The notes below the pieces were generated by a model that was not told where the DNA came from, ran no database searches, and saw only the letters and a program-made list of their open reading frames with translations. DNA of 64,000 nucleotides from Apostichopus japonicus (Eukaryota; Echinodermata; Holothuroidea; Aspidochirotida; Stichopodidae). Within the stretch, counting starts at the first letter, position 1. The number at the start of each line of letters is the position of its first letter. A program made the translations under genes and the position numbers. The stretch spans positions 11,311,213-11,375,212 of the forward strand of contig NC_092574.1 of assembly GCF_037975245.1 (NCBI RefSeq), given 5' to 3'. Positions 14,938 through 63,162 of the stretch are shown here, piece after piece.

Positions 14938-15112
14938 CCTACAGTGGAATTACGATCTTCCTTACCGGTTTCGAACCTCTGGACATACAATCAGCGTCCA
15001 TAGCCTAGTGGTTAGGGTGTCCGCGTACAGAGCGGGAGGCCCGTGGTTCGAATCCCGGTGGAGGCTGAAAGTTTTTTCACTGTTCTTGATTTTCCAACTC
15101 ATTACGATTTTC
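14938..15112 (+). mobile_element. tRNA-derived SINE, copy 1
   Basis: Contains a pol III type A-box-like segment (TAGTGGTTAGGGTG, about 15007-15020) and a B box (GGTTCGAATCCCG, about 15045-15057). Around these a near-complete tRNA fold can be drawn: acceptor strands GCGTCCA and TGGAGGC with one mismatch, and an anticodon stem TCCGC/GCGGG around a 7-base loop. A tail containing CACTGTTCTTGATTTTCCAAC and ACTCATTACG is shared with the copies at 38686-38866 and 58365-58535, and TA-rich sequence follows. The same 5' segment, GGTTTCGAACCTCTGG, precedes the tRNA-like part in this copy and, with changes, in the others. This makes a SINE more likely than a lone tRNA gene. Confidence 0.7.
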
Positions 15113-16682: not shown

Positions 16683-17194
16683 CGTATGGGCAGGGGCGGA
16701 TCCAGGGGGGGGGCCGACCCGGCCCCGGCCCCCCCTTTTTGGAAATCAGTTGCGTTTTTTTTATGTGGGAGTACTTTAAATTCCTAATAGGCATAACTTG
16801 GTGAAAGAAAAGCCTAATATATATCCAGCTGTTCTTCCCTGAAACGCGATCGTTTTTATTCCAAATTTGAAACTAAGGCAATTACCGGGCCTACGCGACA
16901 TCACGTATTAATTAGATACGGCTCAGTACTATAGTGCTGACTATTACTGTCAGGGAAAATCAATGCACAGTTAGCAAGTATATCATAATTATCTGAATGA
17001 AACGGGGTGTAGGCGGTTTAACACTATCTAACGCAACGTAGTCGCCAAGAACCTGAAGTATTTTTAAGGGAGGGCCCAAGGAACATGAACTTATAGCATG
17101 CTCCTCGTGGTGAATCATAATTGCACCTATTAGGTGAATTGAGTGTACTGTTAATAGTAGGAGAGACTAGTGTATAGGTTCTTATGACCAACTA

Positions 17195-17241
17195 GACCGG
17201 TTTCTGCTCTCAAACTTTATAGGAGCTTCATCAGTAGTAGC
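17195..17241 (-). ncRNA. Hammerhead ribozyme candidate (best of the set)
   Basis: On the minus strand: stem I strand ACTA, core CTGATGA (17234-17228), stem II GCTC/GAGC around a 13-base loop, core GAA, stem III ACC/GGT with no loop, cleavage triplet GTC (17197-17195), then the stem I partner TAGT (17194-17191). All invariant core residues (CUGAUGA, GAA, A15.1-U16.1, NUH triplet) are present. The base pair expected next to the core at 10.1-11.1 is an A-A mismatch, which may lower activity. Confidence 0.55.
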
Positions 17242-18115
17242 CTTTGAATATTTTATATTCGGCCTGGGCGTCTCGTTCTCAAAATGCATCTATTTTCTGT
17301 GCACGAGTTTTTATGGGCTCATAATGCAGCTATAAGAGCATCTAAAAGAGCTTCGTGTGAACCTTCAGAGTCAGCTGATTCTTCGTTAGTATGAAACCTT
17401 GAGTTAACAAGTAAACCTTTGAGATTTTGGTTTTATTTTTTGATTTATTATATTATATATAATAATTTGGGCGCTGTCGGCAAATTTTGGGTCTGTCGGC
17501 AAAAGGAGAAAAGGTGAAGAGAGCGGAAGGGGAAGAAAGAAGGAAAGCTGAATAAAGAAAAGGAGAACGGGAGCTTCTTTATCGGTTATTTCGATTTTCC
17601 AGTTCTTCATCTGATAAACTCATTCACCAATCCAATCACCCGACGCCTGCAAGTTAAAAACCTCTCTGCAAATAACTGATAATGTCACGGCCGTCAGTAT
17701 AGCTACTGTAGCCAGGCTCAGCTAGACGAGTGCCAGAATCACCGGCAACTCAGTGAAAGAAATGGAATTAAAGGCTTCCGTATAGGCCGTAGCCCATGAG
17801 TCGTGCTATCGTGTGACAACGTGTTGTTATTATCCTATGTTCAGAATGACGTCATCGCAGATGTCATTCGTTCTCCGTGGAAAACTTAAGGACACGGCTC
17901 ACGAATTGTACACGATTTTTAACGTTTCTCGCTTGTATATCAATGAATGTTGTTATTTCTCATTACCGGAAAGTTTTCTGAACATTTTCATCACGAAGTT
18001 TCACTATTTCAACGATCGGTGAAAGAGAAAACACAGTTCGATAATTGGTCCCAATTAATTCTTCTTCTGCCGACTGCCATAAAAATAATATCGAAATGGA
18101 AATTCTACGGTGCAA

Positions 18116-18395
18116 AATTTGACTTAAAATATGCACCAGATTGCATCTAAGGACGTTTCAAAACTAAAAATTTTCCAAAGGGGAGGGGACACCCCCTCCC
18201 CTTAGACCCCTCCCCCATTTCAGTCACCACTTCCAGATCCGTCGGCAAATCAAATTTGACTTAAAATATACACCAGATTGCATCTAAGGACGTTTCAAAA
18301 CTAAAAATTTTCCAAAGGGGAGGAGACACCCCCTCCCCTTAGACCCCTCCCCCATTTCAGTCACCACTTCCAGATCCGTCGGCAAATCAAATTCT
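18116..18395. repeat. Tandem duplication of an approximately 130-bp unit
   Basis: Two nearly identical units in direct order, each running from AAATTTGACTTAAAATAT through GCATCTAAGGACGTTTC, a CCCCTCCCC hairpin-like segment and CCAGATCCGTCGGCAAATC. The second starts near 18248. A related segment lies at 18825-18905. Confidence 0.85.
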
Positions 18396-20838
18396 CCACA
18401 CCCCCCCCCCCAACAAAAAAACCGCTACGCCCCTGAATAGGAAGCAAGAAATAATCCACAAATTCCGATACATTTTCGGTCGGTGATCCGTTTCCGCTTA
18501 TTATCAGGCCCTCCCTTAAAAATACTTCAGGTTCTTGGCGACTACGTTGCGTTAGATAGTGTAAAACCGCCTACACCCCCCTTTCATTAATAAGTATATC
18601 ATAATTATCTCATTGAATATATCTTGTTTTATGTTTTTTCTTTGGGTGAATCTGGTGTCATAATTTCCGCGCAAAAGAAAAAACGAATCGACGCAATAAT
18701 AGTGTATCCATTGTACATGCACTGTTGAGCGTTCTTAAATATGTGTCTATCGAGCAAAAATATGTGCACAAAAAAGCGTGTCTGCAACGTATCTGGTTTT
18801 TCTAGTTGCGAAATGTTTCACCATTTTGCATCTAAGCACTCACAATTAACCAAAAATTTCCAAGGGGGAGGGGGCCCCTCCCCCTAGACCCCTCCCCCAG
18901 GACGCAGATCACTAAAGTGCTACCATCGGGATGTCGGCCCCCCCTTTCTCAAAATCCTGGATCCGCCCCTGCGTATGGGTGTGTGTATGTAATGCGTGTA
19001 TGCGTTAATGCATACACTGAAAAAATAAACTAGTCAATATTGCCACGGACTAACGTTAAATTAGTCTATAACGTTAGTCAATGCACACGGACTAGCAAAA
19101 ATCTTCGTTTCATCGCTGCTTCTTAGTTAGTTTACACTGACTAAGGAAAATATAATCGCAGCTTAGTCGGTGGCGACGGACTAAGGTATTTTAACCCATG
19201 GACTAAGAACGATACGGACACCCGATTAACGCCATAATCGTAGCTTAGTCGGTGTCGACCGACTAATGTATTTTAACCCAATTCGATTCACTTCAATTTG
19301 GAAACCGAGAGGCAACGGCAGCTTGCTGGGCTTGGCATAGTTTCATACGATCACTCTAAGCAACTTTCAACCGTAAATCACCCAAGAAGGTCTTTAGAAC
19401 AATGGAGGTATTAACTGCATCATCGGCCTACCTGTTATTCCTTTAACTTGAAGGTAAAATTAAAGTTAATTGTTAGGCCACTGGCACTAGTACTGTATTA
19501 TGGTTAGTGTAACGCTACCGTTGTCACGTTGGCGTTTCGCAATACACAAGTGCAATGACAGTGAGTAGCCTATAGGCTTCTACTGGGTACTGCAGTGCAT
19601 TCTCAACACTAAAGTGTGCATCCTAAACACCAATTAACAATGTGTTATGTGTGTATTGGGCTAGATTGAACAGTGGCACATAATCTTCTTATTTATTCCC
19701 AAACAAATGCTGGAACTATAAGGCTCAATAGTTTATTTGAAGTCTACACTCATTTGGTAAAGATTTCCTGTAATTTCCCATGTGAATCTAAATGGGTAGG
19801 CTTTGTGATATTGAATAAGCAAGGCTAGACCTTCAAACGTACAGTCACAGTAGGCTGAACAAATTATGTTGGCTAGTCAACGGTATTATATGTTGCGAGC
19901 AGTCAGGATGCACGCTTCAGTTCTATTTAACCTTTTCATTTATCATTTTTTAGTATTTAATTTCCGGTCACGCCCAGGAAACAATTGCGACATTCCTTCA
20001 CGGTCGACTTGCTTACTGTAAGAAGTATTAACCGTTTTTTCTCAGGCAAGCTTGATAGTCTGAAGTTATTATAACATGTGCTTTTAGTATACTGCCAAAA
20101 GAGTAAGTTGTTGTATTTGTATTGATATTTTATGTAGAAGTAACGGAAAATTTAGTATGTTTAGTTTGGTCTAATTGCACGTTTTTTTTTCTGTCCAATG
20201 TAGTGCAGGGTTCACTTGCGCGAATTCAAATTATTCTGTTTATGTATATGTATATGCATCGATTCTTAGATTATGATGTTTTTTTGACATTTATTTGTAA
20301 TTCAAGCATATCTGTTTAGTAGCAAAGTGTAAAGGTTAAGATTAATTAGTTTTCTCTTTTTGATCCTAGATTGAATGAAACTCATTGGCGTAAATAATAG
20401 ATCAGATGATACAGTTTAACGCAGTTGCTAAAACTCTGGGTATTCTCTAGTCTTCGCCGGTCCATTATATACTTTAGTACTACTAGTAAGACTATATCAA
20501 AACGACCGAAGACAAACTTAGTGTAACAAAATACTGATTCTCCTCTAGCCTAGGTCTAAACAGGCTTGTTATGTGAGCAAGCAAAATAACAACTAAAAAC
20601 GATTAGGCCTATAAATAAGTTGGCTCAGTGCATTTCTGTTTCTAAAATTTTATATTTTTAAAGATCATAAAAGCAAACAAAGATTTAGCCCATGTCTTAT
20701 TATCTCTGTATTCTGGGCATTTGATTCTGGTTGCAATGGTGATGACACTCTCGTTCAAATTTTCAGCTTTATACAGTCTGCTTCAAACTTTGGGATTGTT
20801 TTTAGAGACTATAGTGGAAGCAAATCTCACATAACTTT

Positions 20839-26281: not shown

Positions 26282-27432
26282 TGTCCATGATTGTCATGTC
26301 CATATTGCCATATTGTCATGATGCAAATCTGGGTTGCCAAGATACACACCATTTGTCAATAAACTATTTGAGATACCGCAATGCATTCTGTGAGAAAAAA
26401 TAGTTGAGAATAAACCTTTGATAGCAACCTGCATGCTGTTATGAAAAATGTAGATAGGCCTACACACATTAATTAAAATGTAATATATGTACACTACAGA
26501 AACACATATCGATTTAATCATTCCGTCTGGGTTCGATTGTAAAGTTTAGGTATTATCCAAATTAATTTATATCAGTTTGATCGTTTATAAACCTTTCATT
26601 GTTTTCATGACTTTTCATGTATTTCCTTTCCAAGGGACTTTATGTCAGTTTTCGACGGCCTTGGGTAAGATTAGCTACGTCTAATGAATGGAGGAAAGAA
26701 CTATTGAATGAACAAAAGAACGAATGAATGAATGAATCTAAAGGTCAAATTTCCATCCTTTTCTTATCTTATGAAAAATATATGAATATTGATATTGTGG
26801 CAACAGCTCCCTCCCTCCCTCTCCCTCCCTCCTTCCTTCCTTCCTTCCCACCCGCCCTCCTTTCTTCATACCCACCCTCCTTTTACTTCTTTATAAGAAA
26901 ATCCTAACACCCAATATTATCCCTTGGATATTGATCAGCTTTACTATTATTGTTCTTAGACAAAACGATACCGTGGTAACATTGTTTTAAAAAAAATAGA
27001 AAAAAATAAATAAATTGACATTATACAAACGGAATCTATAAAAATGGATTTCTTTTCCGTCTCTCTTTATGAGTGAGTAATGAAACTGTGCGACAGAACT
27101 AATGAACAGTATCGACAAACTCCGAAAAGACAAGAATGTTATAGAAGAAGCTCCCGGTTGTAAAATAAAGCCTTTTATACGAAGATCGTTATTTCAAGTC
27201 CTGATTTAAATCTAATATTTTCTTTACCTTTACTTGAATATTGATTATTTCTCTTCTTTATCTTCTCCCCACGCAATATTTCGTGGTTACATATTTCGAT
27301 AACAATATTACGATAACGATAGACTATTTATCAAAAGTTGGTGGGTGTGAGCTATTAGAACATTAGAACCGCCATGAATTGACAAATCATCACACGAACG
27401 TCGATGCAGTGAGCTACAAATCTCGGGATTAT
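26282..27432. other. Non-coding stretch with pyrimidine repeats
   Basis: A (CCCT)n/(CCTT)n tract lies at about 26808-26850 and an (AATG)n tract near 26715-26735. No gene seen. Confidence 0.4.
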
Positions 27433-27689
27433 ATATAACGGAATATATAGAGTAGGTTGGCGTCTATCTTGGCGCAGAGTGCTCTATGTCCATTGGACAG
27501 AGCGGAATATATGTTGATACTAGATGAGACTAGTGGAACACTAGTAGTTGTAACTCGGAGTTTCACGCTTTGTAGCGATCTTCAGACAACTCGAGTTGTC
27601 TGAAGATCGCTACAAAGCGTGAAACTCCGAGTTACAACTACTAGTGTTCCACTAGTCTCATCTAGTATCAACATATAACGGAATATATA
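27433..27689. mobile_element. Short insertion with 17-bp direct repeats and a perfect 170-bp palindrome
   Basis: ATATAACGGAATATATA occurs at 27433-27449 and 27673-27689 and brackets 223 bp. Within it 27508-27677 is a perfect palindrome with 85-bp arms and no spacer, centred on CAACTCGAGTTG (27587-27598). Each arm carries a hammerhead-like motif. The bracketing direct repeats suggest an integrated element rather than a simple local inversion. Confidence 0.65.
27593..27639 (+). ncRNA. Hammerhead ribozyme candidate, mirrored on the minus strand
   Basis: Plus strand: stem I strand AGTTGT (27594-27599), core CTGAAGA (27600-27606), stem II CGCT/AGCG around ACAA, core GAAA (27621-27624), stem III ACTC/GAGT around one C, triplet GTT (27631-27633), then the stem I partner ACAACT (27634-27639), six pairs. 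The core fits CUGANGA...GAAA...NUH. The pair next to the core in helix II is U-U, a defect. Because the locus is a palindrome, the same motif exists on the minus strand in the left arm. Confidence 0.5.
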
Positions 27690-28866
27690 TATATATCTGG
27701 AAACAGGTATGTTGAATTATAACTTTAATACTGCATGCAAGTATGTAACTTCTAAGATCAGTCAAATCTATAGTTTTCCTTCTTTTAAACATGAGCATTT
27801 ATTTTGTCAATTTAGTTTGAGAAAATCATAAATGCAATAGGACATATAGGTATATAGATACTTTTATAGAGTTGATTCTATTTTTATGTAAAATTCAAAA
27901 CAAAAGCAGTAAAGGATAAAGCAAGATTACGAAAAAGAAATAAAAATATTGGCATAGGAAGCTATCAAACTGATCTACGTTATGTAGATGGTACGGTGAC
28001 CCAGATTGGACACACAAACGTTTACGATTTCATAGTATCCTTTAAACCAAAAATAATTATTATCTGGAAATGTTCGACTACATAAGGTCTCGAAATATCG
28101 GTTTTGATATTTTGTTGATTTCTTCCTTGTAATTTCTCGAAGTTAAGGAATAGTAGGATAGGGTTTAGAGTAGGCAACTAAGTAAGAATAACTGGCGATT
28201 TTTTAAATTATGATTATTACAGATAAATTTGAGGAAAATTCGAAACTTTGACAGATTACGGGGTTTTTGAAACAAGAAAATTATGATCATTAATTACCAG
28301 GCATTATTTTTGCTACTACAAACGATCTAACTGAATGATGCATCACCGGTTACAAAAGTGTGCGCAGAGACATACCCCCCCCCCCGCCTCCCACCCCCTT
28401 GCTCCACCTTGCTTAATTCGTTGGAGGGGTAGCTCTGCAGGGGAAGTGGCCAACGATATTTTGACATATTGAGTATTCTATATTTACTTAGACTTTTTAA
28501 ATATACGAGCCATAGTGCAAGTAACGGGTACAATAGCTACTGGAAATATACTGAAAGAACGGGAGTAAGCCTTTGACAAGGGATGGGGTGGTGGTGGGGT
28601 GGGGGTGACGGTGGGGGGGGGGTTGGATCGTCACGACATATCACGAAATTTAACAAAAGAGAAAAGTGGATGGTTGGGTACTAAATGCATTTTAGAGAGA
28701 GAGAGAGCGATGATAATACAGGACAAATACTCAGTCATTACATATAGAGACTGCTTAAATATCTCGTTGTTATTATACAGGGATATTTAGTACCACCTCA
28801 ATCCTTTCGTGTTAATCCAGCTTTTACACTTTCGGAAACCCCTTTTTTTTGTTTCTTGAATTTCAG
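27690..28866. other. Non-coding stretch upstream of the fibrinogen-related gene
   Basis: Has C-runs (28375-28385) and G-runs (28611-28622). No clear core promoter was identified. The pyrimidine tract and AG just before 28867 suggest that the first coding exon is an internal exon with an untranslated exon further upstream. Confidence 0.35.
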
Positions 28867-40345: not shown

Positions 40346-40965
40346 TTATGGATAATTACAATAACAGTTAGTAGTTTCATTGCAACAAGGAATCATATCG
40401 CGGTTTTCAGTGTCCATCAATGGTGGTGCTCTAATTAAACCAGCTTCGTGGTCGGATATTAAGTTCTGTACGCTCTCGATTAGGGCATCGAACTTGGATG
40501 GATCCAGGGGCCACGACTCTGTCGGATCGGCATCCAAATCAAAGATGAGCGGTGGGTCATGTTCTGTGACGCACTCTTCAGAAACGCTTTTCTTGTTACA
40601 ATCAAAGTAATGCCCAGAAGGATAACCAGCTGGCAGGCACACATCTGCAAATTCTTCTGGCGTCTTATCGGCTTGAGTAAAGAAATGGAGTTTATATTTA
40701 CCGGACCGGACAGCGAAAAGAATATCGCGGTTATAAAAGAAGATAAAATCCCTAGTAGAGGGCTCTTTTCCAAGAAGCACGGAAACGTCGTTGACACCAT
40801 CGTGCTCTACGTCAGTGGGCATTTCACCGTCAGCCAGATCCACAAATATCGAAAACAGGTCGAGAGCACTGAAGATTTCATTCGAAACCCCTGGCGTGAT
40901 TACCCCAGGCCAGTAGGATATTAAAGGTACACGGTATCCACCTTCAAAGGAATTGCTTTTAAATC
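40346..40965 (-). CDS. Sulfatase exon 6 (terminal)
   Basis: 620 bp, enters in phase 1 after tctttcag and ends in TAA. Encodes [20 protein letters not shown], the [15 protein letters not shown] segment, the [20 protein letters not shown] block typical of animal arylsulfatases and a cysteine-rich end with a glycosylation site (CNET). Confidence 0.92.
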
Positions 40966-43900
40966 CTGAAAGAATGATTTGTTTTTTCAATTGTTAAAAT
41001 ACTTTGAGAAAACAAAAGAATGAACGTTACTATTTAAAACCCCAGAGGGGAGGAAGGTGGAGGAAAGGGGAGGAAGGGGCAACTTCCACCGTCAGTCGGG
41101 GAATGGTTAATTCGGGGGGATTTTCTTTTCATTTGGACAGGGAAGAATGAGACCATCGCTGCGAGTGACCCCCCACCTCCCCTACCCCCGCCCCTCTTCC
41201 AATTTTACATAAGGAAGTTGCGTATAGTATTTATTAGGACAAGTATGCGTACAGACGTAATTATAGACAATATATTATAGTCGAACTATGAATCAAAATG
41301 CACCATTTATTAATTAGCCAATAGAAGGATAAGGAGAAAACTTTTCACGAAGCAGGTTAAGTAAATGTTTTCAATACATCGAGTATCAAAGACATATGGG
41401 TTACTTTTTTCTCCCGCAAACATCTATAACTTCTCGATAAATTCATTTCTCACAAAGAGTGACCGTGGGGTTATGTTATGCCGTTGATACAAACTTATAG
41501 ACTGATCCGTCTTAATAGACTCACCTCGAAATATTCCCGGATCCCCTGCATCCAAGCAATATTCTAAATGAGGTCCATGATCGGACATGAAAACCACTAA
41601 GGTTTCTTTTGCGATTTCCAGTTCTTCCAACTCTTTGATAATGGTACCTACTGCCCAACTTAATTCATTGATGTTGTCACCATATGCACCTTTAAAATCA
41701 ATATTTAATAGAAAAAAATGATTATGCAATATATATTCTTTACTGAAAATAGAGAGACAAAAATTGTTAGCAAACTCCTTATCTACTGCAAGGAAAGCCT
41801 GTGTGGGTAAAACTGTAACAGTTAGAGGGCCTGACATTTTGACCTTCTGTGGATATACACTCGTAGGTGGGGGGGGGGGGGTACGATGCATCGGAAGAAG
41901 ATCCTACTTGGATCGGAACGTCAGGCCCTCTGACATGTACATCTTTATTGAAAAAAAAAAATAGAAATGCGGCAAAGAAGTGGCTGAATAACAACTTCTT
42001 GGAGATAAGATCAAATGCCTTTTCCAAGAACAAGAACTTCGCCCTGGATCGTACTGAAAACTTGACATAAGTTATTTGATCGTTTTAGATAGGCTTCTAT
42101 GAGCGATTTCAAATCCCTAATCCTTACTAATAGTGTTAGATGTTTCTGAGAGCTTTGTGCAAAGGACGACGATTGCAATGGAAGTCTCTTTACGGATATC
42201 TTACAATGAATATAGAGCATTACATATGATGCATTGTAACTTTTATCTTAACGATGGTTTCCATCACACGGTTTATTTTTCTAATAAAATAATCAAAATA
42301 AATATAGAAAAACAAAACCAATGTAGATCCATTCCTGGAGAAACCAAGTTTGGATTTCAGGTCGGGCCCTGAACAATTACGTCATCGGACCCCCTTTCAG
42401 CACCCTTCTTTCCTTCAGTATACCAGCATAATGTGGAAATGAGAATACAATGTTCTTTATGGCATATATTTCCCCGGCCTTCTCTATATTGTGTCTGGGC
42501 CCAAATCACCCGGGGTGACCCGGCCCGTGAATTTTTCCCACCCCTTCTGGTTACCGTGTGGAGAATATGTCAATCATTGATGATTAACCATTGATTTAAC
42601 AATGTCAAAAGTAACAGCTGGACTGTACTGGACCTTACTCCTGGCCGAGTGACCCCACCCCTTGACGAGTGACTCAACTCCTTACCGAGTGACTCCGCCT
42701 TGCCGATTGACCTTTCCCTGGCCAAATGACCTTACCCCTGGCCGAGTGACTCCACCCCTGGCCAAGTGACTCCACCCCTGGCCGAGTGACTCCACCCCTG
42801 GCCGAGTGACTCCACCCCTGGCCGATTGACCTTACTCCTGACAGAGTGACCTTACCCCTGGCCGACGATCCTTTAAATTGAGCTGATGAAAACAACGGTG
42901 CGTGTGGGTGCATCATCGCAAAGTAATAGAAGAAAGGGCCATCTTTGTTTCTCCTTATGAAGTCCACGGTATCATTGACAAATAATGTCGTGAGATTTTC
43001 CTGATAATACGGCTGTTGAACGATCTCATCTCTGTAATATAGGAAACATTTTGTGGGATCAGGGGTATTGTCGTATCTCTGAAGAAGAATAGAAAAGTTT
43101 GTCAAATAAAGTAATGAGTAAATCGTCGTGTAGTACAGCTAAATGTAACTATTGTTCAGTTGTTCAGGGATCGTGGAGTGGATGTGATGGTGCATGCCCC
43201 ATAGGCTTTTAGTTCACTTTCCTAAATTGTGCCCATTTGCTTAGTTTTAACAGAACGTATAACTTTTTTCTTGTAATTAAAAAGTATTGTCTGTCATTTA
43301 AAAAAGTGCCCCTTCTGTAACCAAAAATATTACCATTAAATATTTCAATTAAAATTTCGATACGTGAAAAAAAATAACTCAAATACTGGAATTTGAGGTA
43401 CAGAATGCAGAGAGGATCCATTTCTGTCAGAAAGTTTCTATTAAAACAGATTTTGTGCTACACCCCTGCAGATAAAAGCCACTTGCCCGCAGCCCTCCAT
43501 ACAAGTTTGGTGACTCTCCCCCCCCCCCCCACCCTCTCACCCCCGACCCCTCTGTTTGAACCCTATTCCATTTGCCCCTGCAGTGACGTTAATTTAGTCT
43601 GTGCATTGGAAGTTAAATGGACGTATTTATTGCTAATGTGTTGTCAGTTCGCCTATATTTATATTATCAGATGGTTAATACTTTCATAATATTTTCCATA
43701 GACCGTACATGCATGGCTTGAACGTTTCACACCATTCGGCCATCGAATGATGAATGTCTTCCCGTCAATCTTTCGAAGGACCTTTGAGCATACTTTGTTT
43801 GGAAGTGTATATCCTTCGCATACAATAAACATTTTAAGCAAACACGATCCAATATCTCTCCATAACTCTCATTCATCATCAGCAATTTAATAAACGATTT

Positions 43901-46503
43901 TGCGTCTCTTATTGACCTCTTATTGATATATCGAAAACAGCTCAGAGATTATTGTACACCCACCAGCAATATTTTATCAGATGTGAATGAAAATAAAATT
44001 AGCCTTGGATATAAGGAGAAGGACAAGCTGATTCAAAGTAGGAAAGGTAAACCCTGACATGCGCAGATGCCTTTCTTGCTCCTGAGACAATGTGAAGTAC
44101 ATGAACATAATGTATATTGCTTGTTGTGTATTTTAAAGTCTACTGCTGACGTGATTTTTTTTTATTAAATTGATAAAAAAAAGTAAGTTTAATCTTACAA
44201 TCCTTCCTCCACCACCACACGTTACTCATTTACTAACTCCATTGTTGTCCATATGCCTATACACCTACAGTTTTGAAAGACAATCAGGGTATCTCTTCAG
44301 TAAAGGCTTTGACAAAAACACATAATAATATAAACAGGGAATCCATACAAGTACCGAATATGAGGTGTGTAATTTATCTTATATTTTCGCCTTTTCGGCG
44401 CTCCTTGATAAATTATATAGAAGTGACAACCACCTAAGTAGGTTTTGGATATGACTGTCAAACAATTAGTCGTTTAAAAATTAAGAATATTTTCCCCTTA
44501 GAAAATATTGACGGTTGTACATAGAATGTTCGTTCAGATAAAATTTGAAATAATTTTCAAACGACTTTATAAACTTTTAGCATTAGAACCAGACTATCAG
44601 ACTATCCGATTATCAAGTGAATTACCAACAGATTGGACAGTTTTGTCCTACATTGGTAGCAATCGTGTACAACGTCGTTTTGCTGCAGTTGAGGGGGATC
44701 GGGGGGGGGGGGGGTCGGGGAAGGGGAAGACGTATAAGGGAGATCGGTGTGGGAGAACGATTTCAAATGTATTTTATTGCTTGAATGCAATATAATTCAA
44801 TCTACACCACCTGCTGTCACTTTTGAAATGCTTTGACTTACCCCAGTATTATCGCAAGAGTAACTTCCTCCAAATGGAATAATGTGACCAACGAAATCAA
44901 ATCCGTGGTTGGTAGGAAGATGAAACCCATCTGTCTTTGTGTTCTGATTGATACCTTTCAACAAATGAAATAAATAAAGATAACGTCAGTTTTTTTTTAT
45001 CTATTCCGTCCTCAATGAGTTGTGTCCTTTTTTAAATTTTGTTTTTTATTTTAGTTTGATTAAATTCTACGTCCATTGCTTAATATACTCCGATGATAAC
45101 TTGCTTGCAGAAAATATTTGAAACTCTCATTCCAGAGTGGTCACAAACCGGAAACGAAGACGTATATGTAAAAGTGGGGTGGTGCTACACCTACTTCCAC
45201 ACCCACCTGGATCGGTGCTTGGTATAGCTTTTTACTCTTTCCCTGACTAAAGATACATTGTAACTCTTTGCTTCTCACGAAAAACAAAGCATGCGAAAGG
45301 AATTTCAACTTACAGGTCAAATGGCTTGAGTGAAAGACTTACCAAGATGCCATTTTCCAACCATACCAGTCGTGTAGTTTTGTATTTTTAGTGCCTCTGC
45401 TATAGTGGTTTCACTTCTGGGTAAACCTGTAGTCAACCATGGCAAAAATACTCGATGGGTCTCACCCCAGACTCCTAAGCGAACTGGAAGTCTGCCTATA
45501 TGTAATCGGGAAAACAGGCACAAATACAAGATACTACGGCGTCACTATTGATATGCATAACAATGCAAGTTTGATGACATGTTATAAGGTTGAGCAGTTC
45601 TTTTCGAGTTAAACCTTTAGATTAAATTGAATTTGTCAGTGTACGATAGCTCAAAACTTCAAAGCTCAACAGAAAAAAATAATAGAGAGAAAAAAAAGAA
45701 TTCGATTTCTACAGTAAGTCAGTCATGAATTTTGTTGCTATGGACGCACGGGTTATTAGGATAAACGTCGTAATGAAATATCGGAAGAGTGTAAACGGAG
45801 CTCCGTGACATAATTTGGGTTCGGGAGGGAAGGGACATGAGGGGAACGTGATTTCCTTCCAAATAAATTGTATTAAATCAACTCTATAAAATCAAAGCGC
45901 TGGAATGATAGCACAAATTTCTACAATAGCCCTCTAACCCAACTAAAACTTTCTCAAGGTAAATGGGGACATCGTTCGTCTTAGACTCCCTCCCCAAAAC
46001 GGACATCAGCCAACATTTGTGACACCACCCACCGCCCCTCCCCCTACCCACCCACCCATGCACACATACACAAACAAATCCGCCACTTCAAACTCTATAT
46101 GGACCTTTCATTTTGTACTATGAATCACATGGAAGCCGAATGAAATGCCATATAGCACTATGGAATGAAACCTCAGATGCAAGGCAACATGCTGTCTAAC
46201 ATTAAGGGATAACTTACCCGTTAACAGCGCAGCTCTACTCGGTGAACAGACAGAATCAGAGGAATATGCCTGTGTAAATCGAAGCCCATTCTCGGCCATA
46301 ACATCTACGGGACCATACTCTTGTGTCGGATGTCCGTATGAAGCTATATCTCCGTAGCCCATATCATCTGCTAGTATCATAATTATGTTAGGACGATCAC
46401 TTTCTGTCTGTCTGGGTTTTCTTGGAGTTTTGCTATCTGCCTGGGATTGATGACCAACCACGGCAAGGGTCAATATAACGAACGCCCAATACATTGCCAT
46501 CAT
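40346..46503 (-). CDS. Arylsulfatase (six exons, complete)
   Basis: Joined minus-strand exons 46503-46218, 45495-45343, 44954-44842, 43078-42856, 41689-41525 and 40965-40346 give 1560 nt, 519 residues plus stop, with all phases consistent. It would hydrolyse sulfate esters in the secretory pathway or lysosome, or after secretion. Features: signal peptide (1 to about 22), metal-binding DD (46-47), sulfatase signature CSPSR (86-90) whose Cys is converted to formylglycine, second signature VGKWHLG with K143 and H145, H241/H243 in MHPHAP, metal ligands D295-H296, and a basic residue in the FKS segment before FEGGYRVP. The C-terminus ([10 protein letters not shown]..., then CC...CYC) resembles the STS/ARSD-type C-terminus, but the membrane hairpin of STS is absent, so it is soluble. 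Substrate unknown. Confidence 0.92.
41525..41689 (-). CDS. Sulfatase exon 5
   Basis: 165 bp, phase 1 to 1, acceptor tttaaag, donor gtgagt. Encodes [14 protein letters not shown], the conserved core strand [14 protein letters not shown] with the metal ligands D-H, and DPGIFRG. An intact copy exists in arm B at 56560-56724. Confidence 0.9.
41822..41937. repeat. Inverted pair of degenerate hammerhead-like repeats in sulfatase intron 4
   Basis: GAGGGCCTGAC (about 41825-41835) pairs with GTCAGGCCCTC (about 41920-41930). Just inside the right arm lies GAAGAAGATCC...GGATCGGAACGTC, a decayed form of CUGANGA...GAAAC-GUC. The left arm carries a further decayed mirror. The arm B equivalent (about 56285-56430) preserves a fuller hairpin, GAAGAAGATCCTGCTAGGATC. 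Confidence 0.4.
42640..42856 (-). repeat. Minisatellite at the exon 4 donor, arm A
   Basis: About ten copies of a 19-20-bp unit (minus strand GGCCAGGGGTGGAGTCACTC, with GGTAAGGTCA variants), starting at the exon 4/intron 4 boundary. The unit matches the exon's own last bases plus the donor. Confidence 0.85.
42856..43078 (-). CDS. Sulfatase exon 4
   Basis: 223 bp, phase 0 to 1, acceptor cttcttcag, donor gtaagg. Encodes [11 protein letters not shown] to FKGSSARG with [13 protein letters not shown]. The donor is the first copy of the adjacent GGCCAGGGGTAAGGTCACTC minisatellite. The open frame runs on through the repeat, but joining at this donor restores the family sequence (SSARG-AYGDN). Confidence 0.88.
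43079..44841. other. Sulfatase intron 3
   Basis: 1.76 kb. Contains C/G-runs near 43520 and 44702. No embedded gene seen. Absent from arm B. Confidence 0.6.
44842..44954 (-). CDS. Sulfatase exon 3
   Basis: 113 bp, phase 1 to 0, donor gtaagt. The acceptor is weak (gttgaaag), with a poor pyrimidine tract. Encodes [19 protein letters not shown] and [14 protein letters not shown]. It completes the GKWHLG-to-NHGFD segment expected in the family and is too short to appear as a long open frame. Confidence 0.85.
45343..45495 (-). CDS. Sulfatase exon 2
   Basis: 153 bp, phase 1 to 1, acceptor atatag, donor gtaagt. Encodes [10 protein letters not shown] to [11 protein letters not shown], including the second sulfatase signature with active-site Lys and His. 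Absent from arm B. Confidence 0.9.
46218..46503 (-). CDS. Sulfatase exon 1
   Basis: Start codon at 46503; two further in-frame ATGs follow within four codons. Encodes the signal peptide ([17 protein letters not shown]), the first metal-binding motif [14 protein letters not shown] and the [11 protein letters not shown] signature. Ends in phase 1 at a gtaagt donor. Absent from arm B. Confidence 0.92.
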
Positions 46504-47059
46504 GAGTTATAGAGGTCCACTTCTTGAATGTATTAACCAAGAGAAAAGGAAACAAAAGAGAAACAAAAGAAGGGATCATCGCTAGGTGTCATAAATTTAT
46601 ACTTCATTATCATTGCAGAGCGCCTAAAAAATGTCAGAGATATAGAAGAATAAGAAGGCATAATAATACTCGTAAAATATCAACAACAAAACTGGTCACA
46701 TATATGTTCTATTTCTATATCTTCTCCAGACCATACAAAGAAAATCAAGAAAAAGACAGTAAATTTTCAGGTAATGATTTCTCACTCTTCGAAATTGTAA
46801 GTGAACAAGTAACTGTAAAGCGATATGTGGTGACGACATCAGTTAGAATCCAAATTGTATTTTCATTATCTGGAGAAACGAATACGAAATGTAGGTCTTT
46901 CTGGCTAAAGGGCTTACGGTAGGTTTAAGAAAACAGAGAGCAAAATACCACAAAAATAAATAAATAAATAAAGAAAGAAAGTAAAATAGCCATTTACTTG
47001 AAATATATGTAACACATCGTTAGCATGTCATTCGAGGCAACAAAAGTCGTATGTTTTTC
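46504..47059. other. Region upstream of the sulfatase gene
   Basis: No clear TATA box was identified in minus orientation. The 132-codon plus-strand frame at 46524-46922 is basic and featureless and has no arm B counterpart, so it is treated as chance. Confidence 0.4.

Positions 47060-59969: not shown

Positions 59970-63162
<3,193 letters not shown>

Follow-up and report, generated by a model that had tools for sequence, protein, structure and literature searches.

A perfect palindrome in Apostichopus japonicus as the probable head-to-head product of two reverse transcripts of a Penelope-like element

The perfect palindrome in the window, the 64,000-nucleotide stretch of Apostichopus japonicus DNA analysed here, probably belongs to a single insertion of the pLTR of a Penelope-like element (PLE) in which two reverse transcripts of one RNA species lie head to head. 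Observed directly are head-to-head copies, variable joints, mirrored variants, a one-tail asymmetry, target-site duplications (TSDs), a TATA context and one long relative with an open reading frame (ORF). The question addressed is how PLEs insert and what accounts for their inverted pLTRs and hammerheads. As many insertions of one short unit display priming sites, the RNA 5′ end, TSD length and joints, rival models become testable by counting. More broadly, two-sided twin-primed reverse transcription at two fixed sites may be the normal insertion route of this Penelope family, with the known inverted pLTRs of PLEs its ordinary product and not one of self-priming, and with the short copies recording RNA 5′ ends (the cap, perhaps once a ribozyme cut); we regard this wider proposition as evenly balanced.

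The perfect spacerless palindrome and its bracketing 17-bp direct repeats, described by a sequence-only reading of the window, are both real. The arms of 85 nt (27508-27592 and 27593-27677) are 100% complementary with 0 nt of spacer, and the repeat ATATAACGGAATATATA is exact at 27433-27449 and 27673-27689, the two copies of a 17-bp duplication of an interrupted TA-rich target. The right repeat shares its first 5 bp (ATATA) with the end of the right arm and of module B, a microhomology, so that the arm outside the direct repeat measures 80 bp. Unit positions are given in the RNA sense, which is the minus strand of the window, as nt 1-143; module A ends at nt 143 and module B at about nt 86. Module A (27450-27592, minus strand) corresponds to a reverse transcript of unit nt 1-143 and includes the tail, nt 87-143 (27450-27506, minus strand), which has an A+C content of 60% across 27450-27507 and, in the long relative L128, extends on in the direction of the 5′ portion of the ORF. 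Module B (27593-27677, plus strand) corresponds to a second reverse transcript, of nt 1 to about 86, in the opposite orientation and without a tail. The modules meet at a head-to-head joint (27592-27593) where CAACTC abuts GAGTTG; other copies mostly have other joints. An internal AUAUAU at unit nt 81-86 (27507-27512, minus strand) is the putative priming site of module B.

Perfect palindromes without a spacer are a recognised type of assembly or library artefact, and a hairpin chimera of one arm, an option also raised by the sequence-only reading, would yield one here. The mirror, however, is enclosed by both copies of a target duplication whose flanks differ, the likely source assembly is based on HiFi reads at about 64x coverage according to the available part of its description (PMC10344927), and in dozens of copies the joint and the flanks are particular to the copy. 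This last observation means that the palindrome is not an assembly artefact, and the chance that it is one is negligible. A search of the genome (671,581,487 bases in 35 contigs) with the insertion, much as that reading had proposed for the arm, returned many further copies: the insertion recurs at no fewer than 40 loci at 93-100% identity (40 scored of 1000 candidates), most of them spanning 27443-27677. These copies also overturn the notion of the palindrome as a one-off product of self-priming.

Copies were collected in three samples, each with its own bias: by palindrome similarity, by head G and by tail. Sample 1 was drawn by similarity to the palindromic copy (39 regions fetched, giving 41 rows including the window and excluding rows with identical cores such as L011 and L014). 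Sample 2 required an intact head bearing G at nt 1, with a base other than C before it (45 matches, of which 18 further loci were used), and sample 3 an intact tail at 100% (30 loci, with 40 scored of 795 candidates). Pooling after removal of duplicates left 83 rows, comprising 67 A/B pairs, 10 with module A only and 6 with module B only; some rows are parts of one insertion, with L070, L078 and L101 giving two rows each. The element strongly prefers TA repeats as its target. In 55 of the 66 tail-bearing pairs (38/43, 11/14 and 6/9 by sample) A+T makes up at least 90% of each 20-bp flank, the flanks are mostly TA runs by eye, and L016 and L038 each contain two insertions inside one TA run. The target duplication is measurable only where the TA run is interrupted, which is so in nine copies; it is 15 bp in seven of these, 18 bp in L009 and 17 bp in the window. 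The remaining 32 rows of the TSD survey comprise seven without an exact repeat and others in uninterrupted TA, where the length is ambiguous.

Outside the palindrome centre the copies are near-identical; at the centre they differ. Across all samples 51 palindromic joints were read, of which 41 are distinct and the commonest was seen five times. In sample 1 the stretch from CTTCAGA to TCTGAAG ranges from 4 to 23 nt, and the fillers in some copies (for example L010, L036 and L058) hold sense pieces of the head. Substitutions within the arms behave differently: over 41 rows, and leaving out the gap cells of two short-armed rows, 21 copy-level cases occur in both arms vs four in one arm, each of the four seen once. 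The 21 mirrored cases represent six different variants and are not independent, as a C-to-T change in loop II alone contributes 14. Since the joints are mostly distinct while the arm variants are mirrored, the palindrome appears to be remade at insertion and not inherited, and most likely the mirror was formed anew each time from one template sequence. Gene conversion could also hold the arms alike but would not explain the variable joints. The same data bear on another reading, a DNA element of foldback or MITE-like type that moves as a palindrome. Such an element would account for direct repeats, many copies and inverted halves; against it, the centre is not inherited, the ends are unequal with one tail, the arms are truncated independently and a retrotransposon-like ORF and promoter lie upstream in the long copy read. 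A transposed palindrome is thus very improbable. That palindrome, hammerhead-like motif and direct repeats mark one class of integrating element had been suggested earlier; the present data uphold an element that integrates, duplicates its target and carries a hammerhead-like motif, whereas the palindrome itself appears to be remade at insertion and is not encoded by the element.

The ends of the two modules point to two separate priming events. Exactly one tail is present in all 66 tail-bearing A/B pairs, none having two. Module B ends at nt 83-86 in 65 of the 66, the other running into masked N. In 53 of 58 pairs the insertion stops at nt 143; in L128 the unit continues beyond it. At the opposite end, module A starts at nt 1-7 in 53/66 and module B at nt 1-13 in 62/66. 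Ten pairs have a truncated module A with module B starting at nt 1-13 (L016, L038, L054, L056, L057, L060, L067, L068, L069 and L093; 2/43, 7/14 and 1/9 by sample, hence mostly from the small sample 2), the start of module A in L093 being nt 42 by BLAST and nearer 47 by eye. The reverse case, with B truncated and A not, occurs once (L098), and both modules are truncated in L073, L076 and L091. Truncations of A fall at nt 65-80, beside the priming site of B, in 7/9 cases from samples 1 and 2 and in 7/13 with sample 3; the binomial p of 1e-5 for this clustering in samples 1 and 2 applies to an interval picked after the data were seen.

A single cDNA could in principle generate both halves by snap-back self-priming, with A folding on its own 3′ end and being copied back before the free end joins the target through TA microhomology. 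This route also yields one tail and a constant B end at a TA run, could produce most of the palindromic copies seen here, and has a precedent in the head-to-head junction palindromes of PLEs in Adineta vaga, as far as the accessible part of that report describes them (PMC3846280). It meets difficulty in 10/66 tail-bearing pairs, where B holds head sequence missing from A: self-priming of A fails for these ten because a cDNA cannot snap back into sequence absent from it, unless a later deletion is invoked. Such deletion inside the palindrome could lie behind some of the truncated-A copies. On balance self-priming is unlikely as the main route. Twin priming from one RNA or dual priming from two RNAs would explain the set of pairs as read from their sequences: judged on anatomy alone, two inverted cDNAs share one TSD and the second is primed internally, as in twin priming. 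The arrangement of inverted pLTR, TSD and one-sided tail known from PLEs is likewise present, also in the long copy L128/L129, as is an internal start of reverse transcription near the pLTR-ORF junction, with the position of the start codon not fixed.

The 5′ end of the presumed template coincides with a promoter-like context. Four loci (L078, L079, L092 and L101) hold sequence upstream of the unit. By pattern search of the loci, TATATATTC starts 32 bp before nt 2 in five contexts, namely L092, L101, L128 (twice) and L129. By eye, L078 has the TATA stretch, split from the unit by an insertion, and the TATA is absent from L079. Nucleotide 2 is the A of CCAGTTG, which we take to be an initiator-like start at a suitable 32-bp spacing from the TATA box. 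The base before nt 2 is C in the parent contexts read. In the short copies of sample 1, which were not selected by head base, G precedes nt 2 in 19/41 for module A and 21/41 for module B, and the genomic C in 10/41 and 11/41, respectively, the rest having another base or none. In the window copy nt 1 of module A (27592) is this G, absent from the parent contexts. The non-genomic G may be a trace of cap reverse transcription, and many short copies look as if they span the stretch between an RNA cap and an internal start.

A hammerhead-like motif in each arm, likewise reported by the sequence-only reading, is borne out as a minimal type I motif with a 6-bp stem I, CUGAAGA, a 4-bp stem II, GAA, stem III and UU before the predicted cut. 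It lies at 27546-27591 on the minus strand in module A, with predicted cleavage between 27552 and 27551, and at 27594-27639 on the plus strand in module B, with predicted cleavage between 27633 and 27634. A strict descriptor (stems of at least 6/4/3) matched these two arms only in the whole 64-kb window. In a simulated background of 60 sequences of 64 kb with the dinucleotide transitions of the window, the strict descriptor gave 0.0 and a relaxed one (4/3/1) 0.15 matches per sequence. Rfam at gathering thresholds found no hammerhead in the whole window, and at E up to 10 over 27300-27800 it returned 19 matches without a hammerhead, chiefly miRNA models, which reflect the palindrome. The motif is therefore minimal, found by descriptor and below Rfam grade. 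Exact-pattern scans for it in viral contigs and prokaryote genome contigs gave no match, which is unsurprising for a repeat of animal origin. A minimal hammerhead in the pLTR is a family feature of PLEs in the accessible text of three reports (PMC7229834, PMC7761336, PMC6155905), and the unit carries one, by descriptor rather than by Rfam.

Folding of a single motif is predicted to be weak (hammerhead fold -4.5, best fold -6.5 kcal/mol), stem III being ACUC-C-GAGU, which in cis provides 3 bp and a 3-nt loop. Two strands can form a double hammerhead at -21.0 kcal/mol in which ACUC-C-GAGU of stem III is paired between strands. RNA of the genomic palindrome folds as a strong hairpin (-153.9 kcal/mol), for which reason the window copy is, on these predictions, unlikely to show ribozyme activity in cis. 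The predicted cut lies between nt 41 and 42, and as 53/66 module A cDNAs pass through it to nt 1-7, most templates appear to have been uncleaved at the hammerhead. In L091 (1440-1720), one copy of 66, the palindrome is centred exactly on the cut, GTTGT meeting ACAAC with no filler, which may be the footprint of a cleaved RNA or chance.

This joint, together with the minimal type I hammerhead and the 143-nt unit, is what might be expected of a non-autonomous animal retrozyme spreading via circular RNA from hammerhead cleavage. That origin is nevertheless quite improbable, given that no head-to-tail unit array was seen among the 83 classified rows and that 53/66 module A ends fall at nt 1-7, on the 5′ side of the nt 41/42 cut, against the single case of L091. 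Nor do the classified rows contain the tandem repeats of 150-450 bp with a canonical type I hammerhead that define retrozymes.

The likely parent of the unit is a longer element. Its upstream sequence occurs at no fewer than 40 places (40 scored of 165 candidates), including seven pairs that face outward at distances of about 1 to 7 kb; of these pairs one, C11, was read (L128, 3051 bases; L129, 481 bases). L128 has a 738-codon open frame, then the TATA box (TATATATTC), then nt 2-86 and then (TA)n. The first ten or so codons of the frame span the joint. A facing inverted nt 2-143 continues past nt 143 toward the apparent ORF start of a partner copy, and the inverted repeat is a perfect 144 bp. 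L129 represents the partner's far end, with a TA run, the tail, nt 143-2 and then the matching 3′ end of the ORF. From this layout of L128 and L129 the long insertion at C11 likewise has a head-to-head arrangement and a single tail. The left copy at C11 has the unit at each end, judging from the end reads, with 1969 bp between lying outside them.

The L128 ORF matched no Pfam family, came near no NCBIfam cut-off and had no notable PDB chain, and tblastn at 1e-3 found no match in 25 fetched GIY-YIG loci. By hhalign it aligns to the L124 ORF of this genome (97 columns, E 4e-5, probability 70), which is RVT_1 plus GIY-YIG by Pfam, and the motifs FDIVEFYPS, YRDD and YIG are recognisable by eye. 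PLEs with GIY-YIG are present in the genome, with at least 37 matches among 150 scored of 626 candidates. The hhalign match, the by-eye motifs and these resident PLEs are why the element is called Penelope-like; with its gene order they suggest a distantly Penelope-like element, whose endonuclease is not proven by a family model. Further Penelope-like ORFs with GIY-YIG occur in L104, L106, L112, L124 and L125, that of L124 also having RVT_1. The unit beside the GIY-YIG gene in L106 was considered as a parent and rejected; it consists of module B alone, set in a TA run adjoining another PLE.

These observations can be assembled into a model of insertion. Transcription would start at the initiator-like site, 32 bp 3′ of the TATA box, which would place the hammerhead at the RNA 5′ end. 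The reverse transcriptase/endonuclease would then cut (TA)n or other TA-rich DNA with a stagger of about 15 bp, leaving 3′ overhangs. One overhang would prime at nt 143, on the 5′ side of the ORF, to give module A with its tail, and the other at the internal AUAUAU, nt 81-86, to give module B. Both cDNAs would often reach the RNA 5′ end, often adding an extra G copied from the cap, and their 3′ ends would be united by end joining with a filler of 0 to about 20 nt. Two cDNAs that both reach the cap would yield a palindrome, as in the window copy, and an A stopping near the priming site of B would yield a classic twin-priming inversion. The polarity of the overhangs, the cap origin of the G, the use of one or two RNA molecules and the identity of the acting enzyme are what we infer in this scheme.

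A second insertion in the window (approximately 16976-18611) had been read as another case of the same class. Its layout is comparable, and that it is of the same kind as the palindrome insertion is plausible. It has an exact 19-bp direct repeat AAGTATATCATAATTATCT, inside a 31-nt match of 87%, and an inverted repeat of 73 nt at 99% (17004-17076 and 18507-18579). Its hammerhead-like motif, on the minus strand at 17238-17191, has a self-complementary stem III (ACCGGU) and appears in the relaxed scan only. Six-frame translation of 16990-18600 gave no Pfam family over the cut-off (TLP-20, E 0.021, 15.2 vs 23.5 bits). The same C- and A-rich sequence lies at both outer ends, as expected of two-sided priming at one 3′ site, and a 137-bp direct tandem duplication at 99% occupies 18115-18388. 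Elsewhere in the window are pieces of a sulfatase gene (40346-46506, minus strand; Pfam Sulfatase and Sulfatase_C), a long open frame for an MFS_1_like transporter (61274-62530) and, beside a TA run, a tRNA-like sequence (14994-15066; Rfam tRNA 47.2 bits, ARAGORN tRNA-Cys). By eye, tRNA-like stretches seem to be present in L078 and L129 as well, perhaps a tRNA-derived repeat.

In the open-licence literature no description of a dual- or twin-primed Penelope insertion was found, and as far as searched a natural insertion series tying together inverted pLTRs, twin or dual priming and both-strand extension is new. It also indicates that a perfectly palindromic stretch of an assembled genome can be genuine and owe its origin to transposition. 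The closest relatives in layout are Pen2a and Pen3a of Adineta vaga, where, in the part of the report available, Arkhipova and colleagues describe inverted pLTRs with junction palindromes and infer self-priming on an antisense template (PMC3846280). Shared with these elements are a pLTR with an adjacent inverted pLTR, unequal lengths, an optional one-sided tail, a TSD around the whole and junction palindromes. The copies sampled here differ in being mostly pLTR-only pairs in (TA)n, in their TSDs of 15-18 bp where measurable vs 9, 10 and 8 bp in Adineta vaga, and in truncated copies that point to two independent cDNAs and not to self-priming.

A biochemical counterpart is PAc, the Penelope/Poseidon element of Anolis carolinensis, which in vitro cleaves and extends both strands of AT-rich DNA and starts reverse transcription internally near the ORF start; the accessible text of the 2024 study leaves later insertion steps to be validated (PMC11167929). 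The present unit resembles PAc in that its hammerhead lies close to the ORF start, reverse transcription begins internally around the pLTR-ORF junction and the target is AT-rich. Both-strand extension is an in vitro result for PAc and is proposed here from genomic sequence, and the PAc hammerhead cut falls inside the ORF, whereas the unit here is placed after the end of one ORF and before the start region of the next. With animal non-LTR retrozymes, as characterised in the excerpted source (PMC7229834), the unit shares small size, a type I hammerhead and low GC; it differs in the lack of head-to-tail arrays in the copies seen, in a hammerhead that is minimal and in cDNA ends that lie mostly at the promoter-like start and not at the ribozyme cut. 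For L1, the portion of the literature consulted treats twin priming as known and dual priming as postulated (PMC2837659), and the present insertions may offer a natural case for the latter. Like L1 twin priming, they combine two inverted cDNAs of one RNA species with one TSD, target microhomology and end-joined inner ends. Unlike L1, they have no poly(A), two fixed priming sites and cDNAs that commonly both reach the RNA 5′ end, and from this last difference the palindromic product follows.
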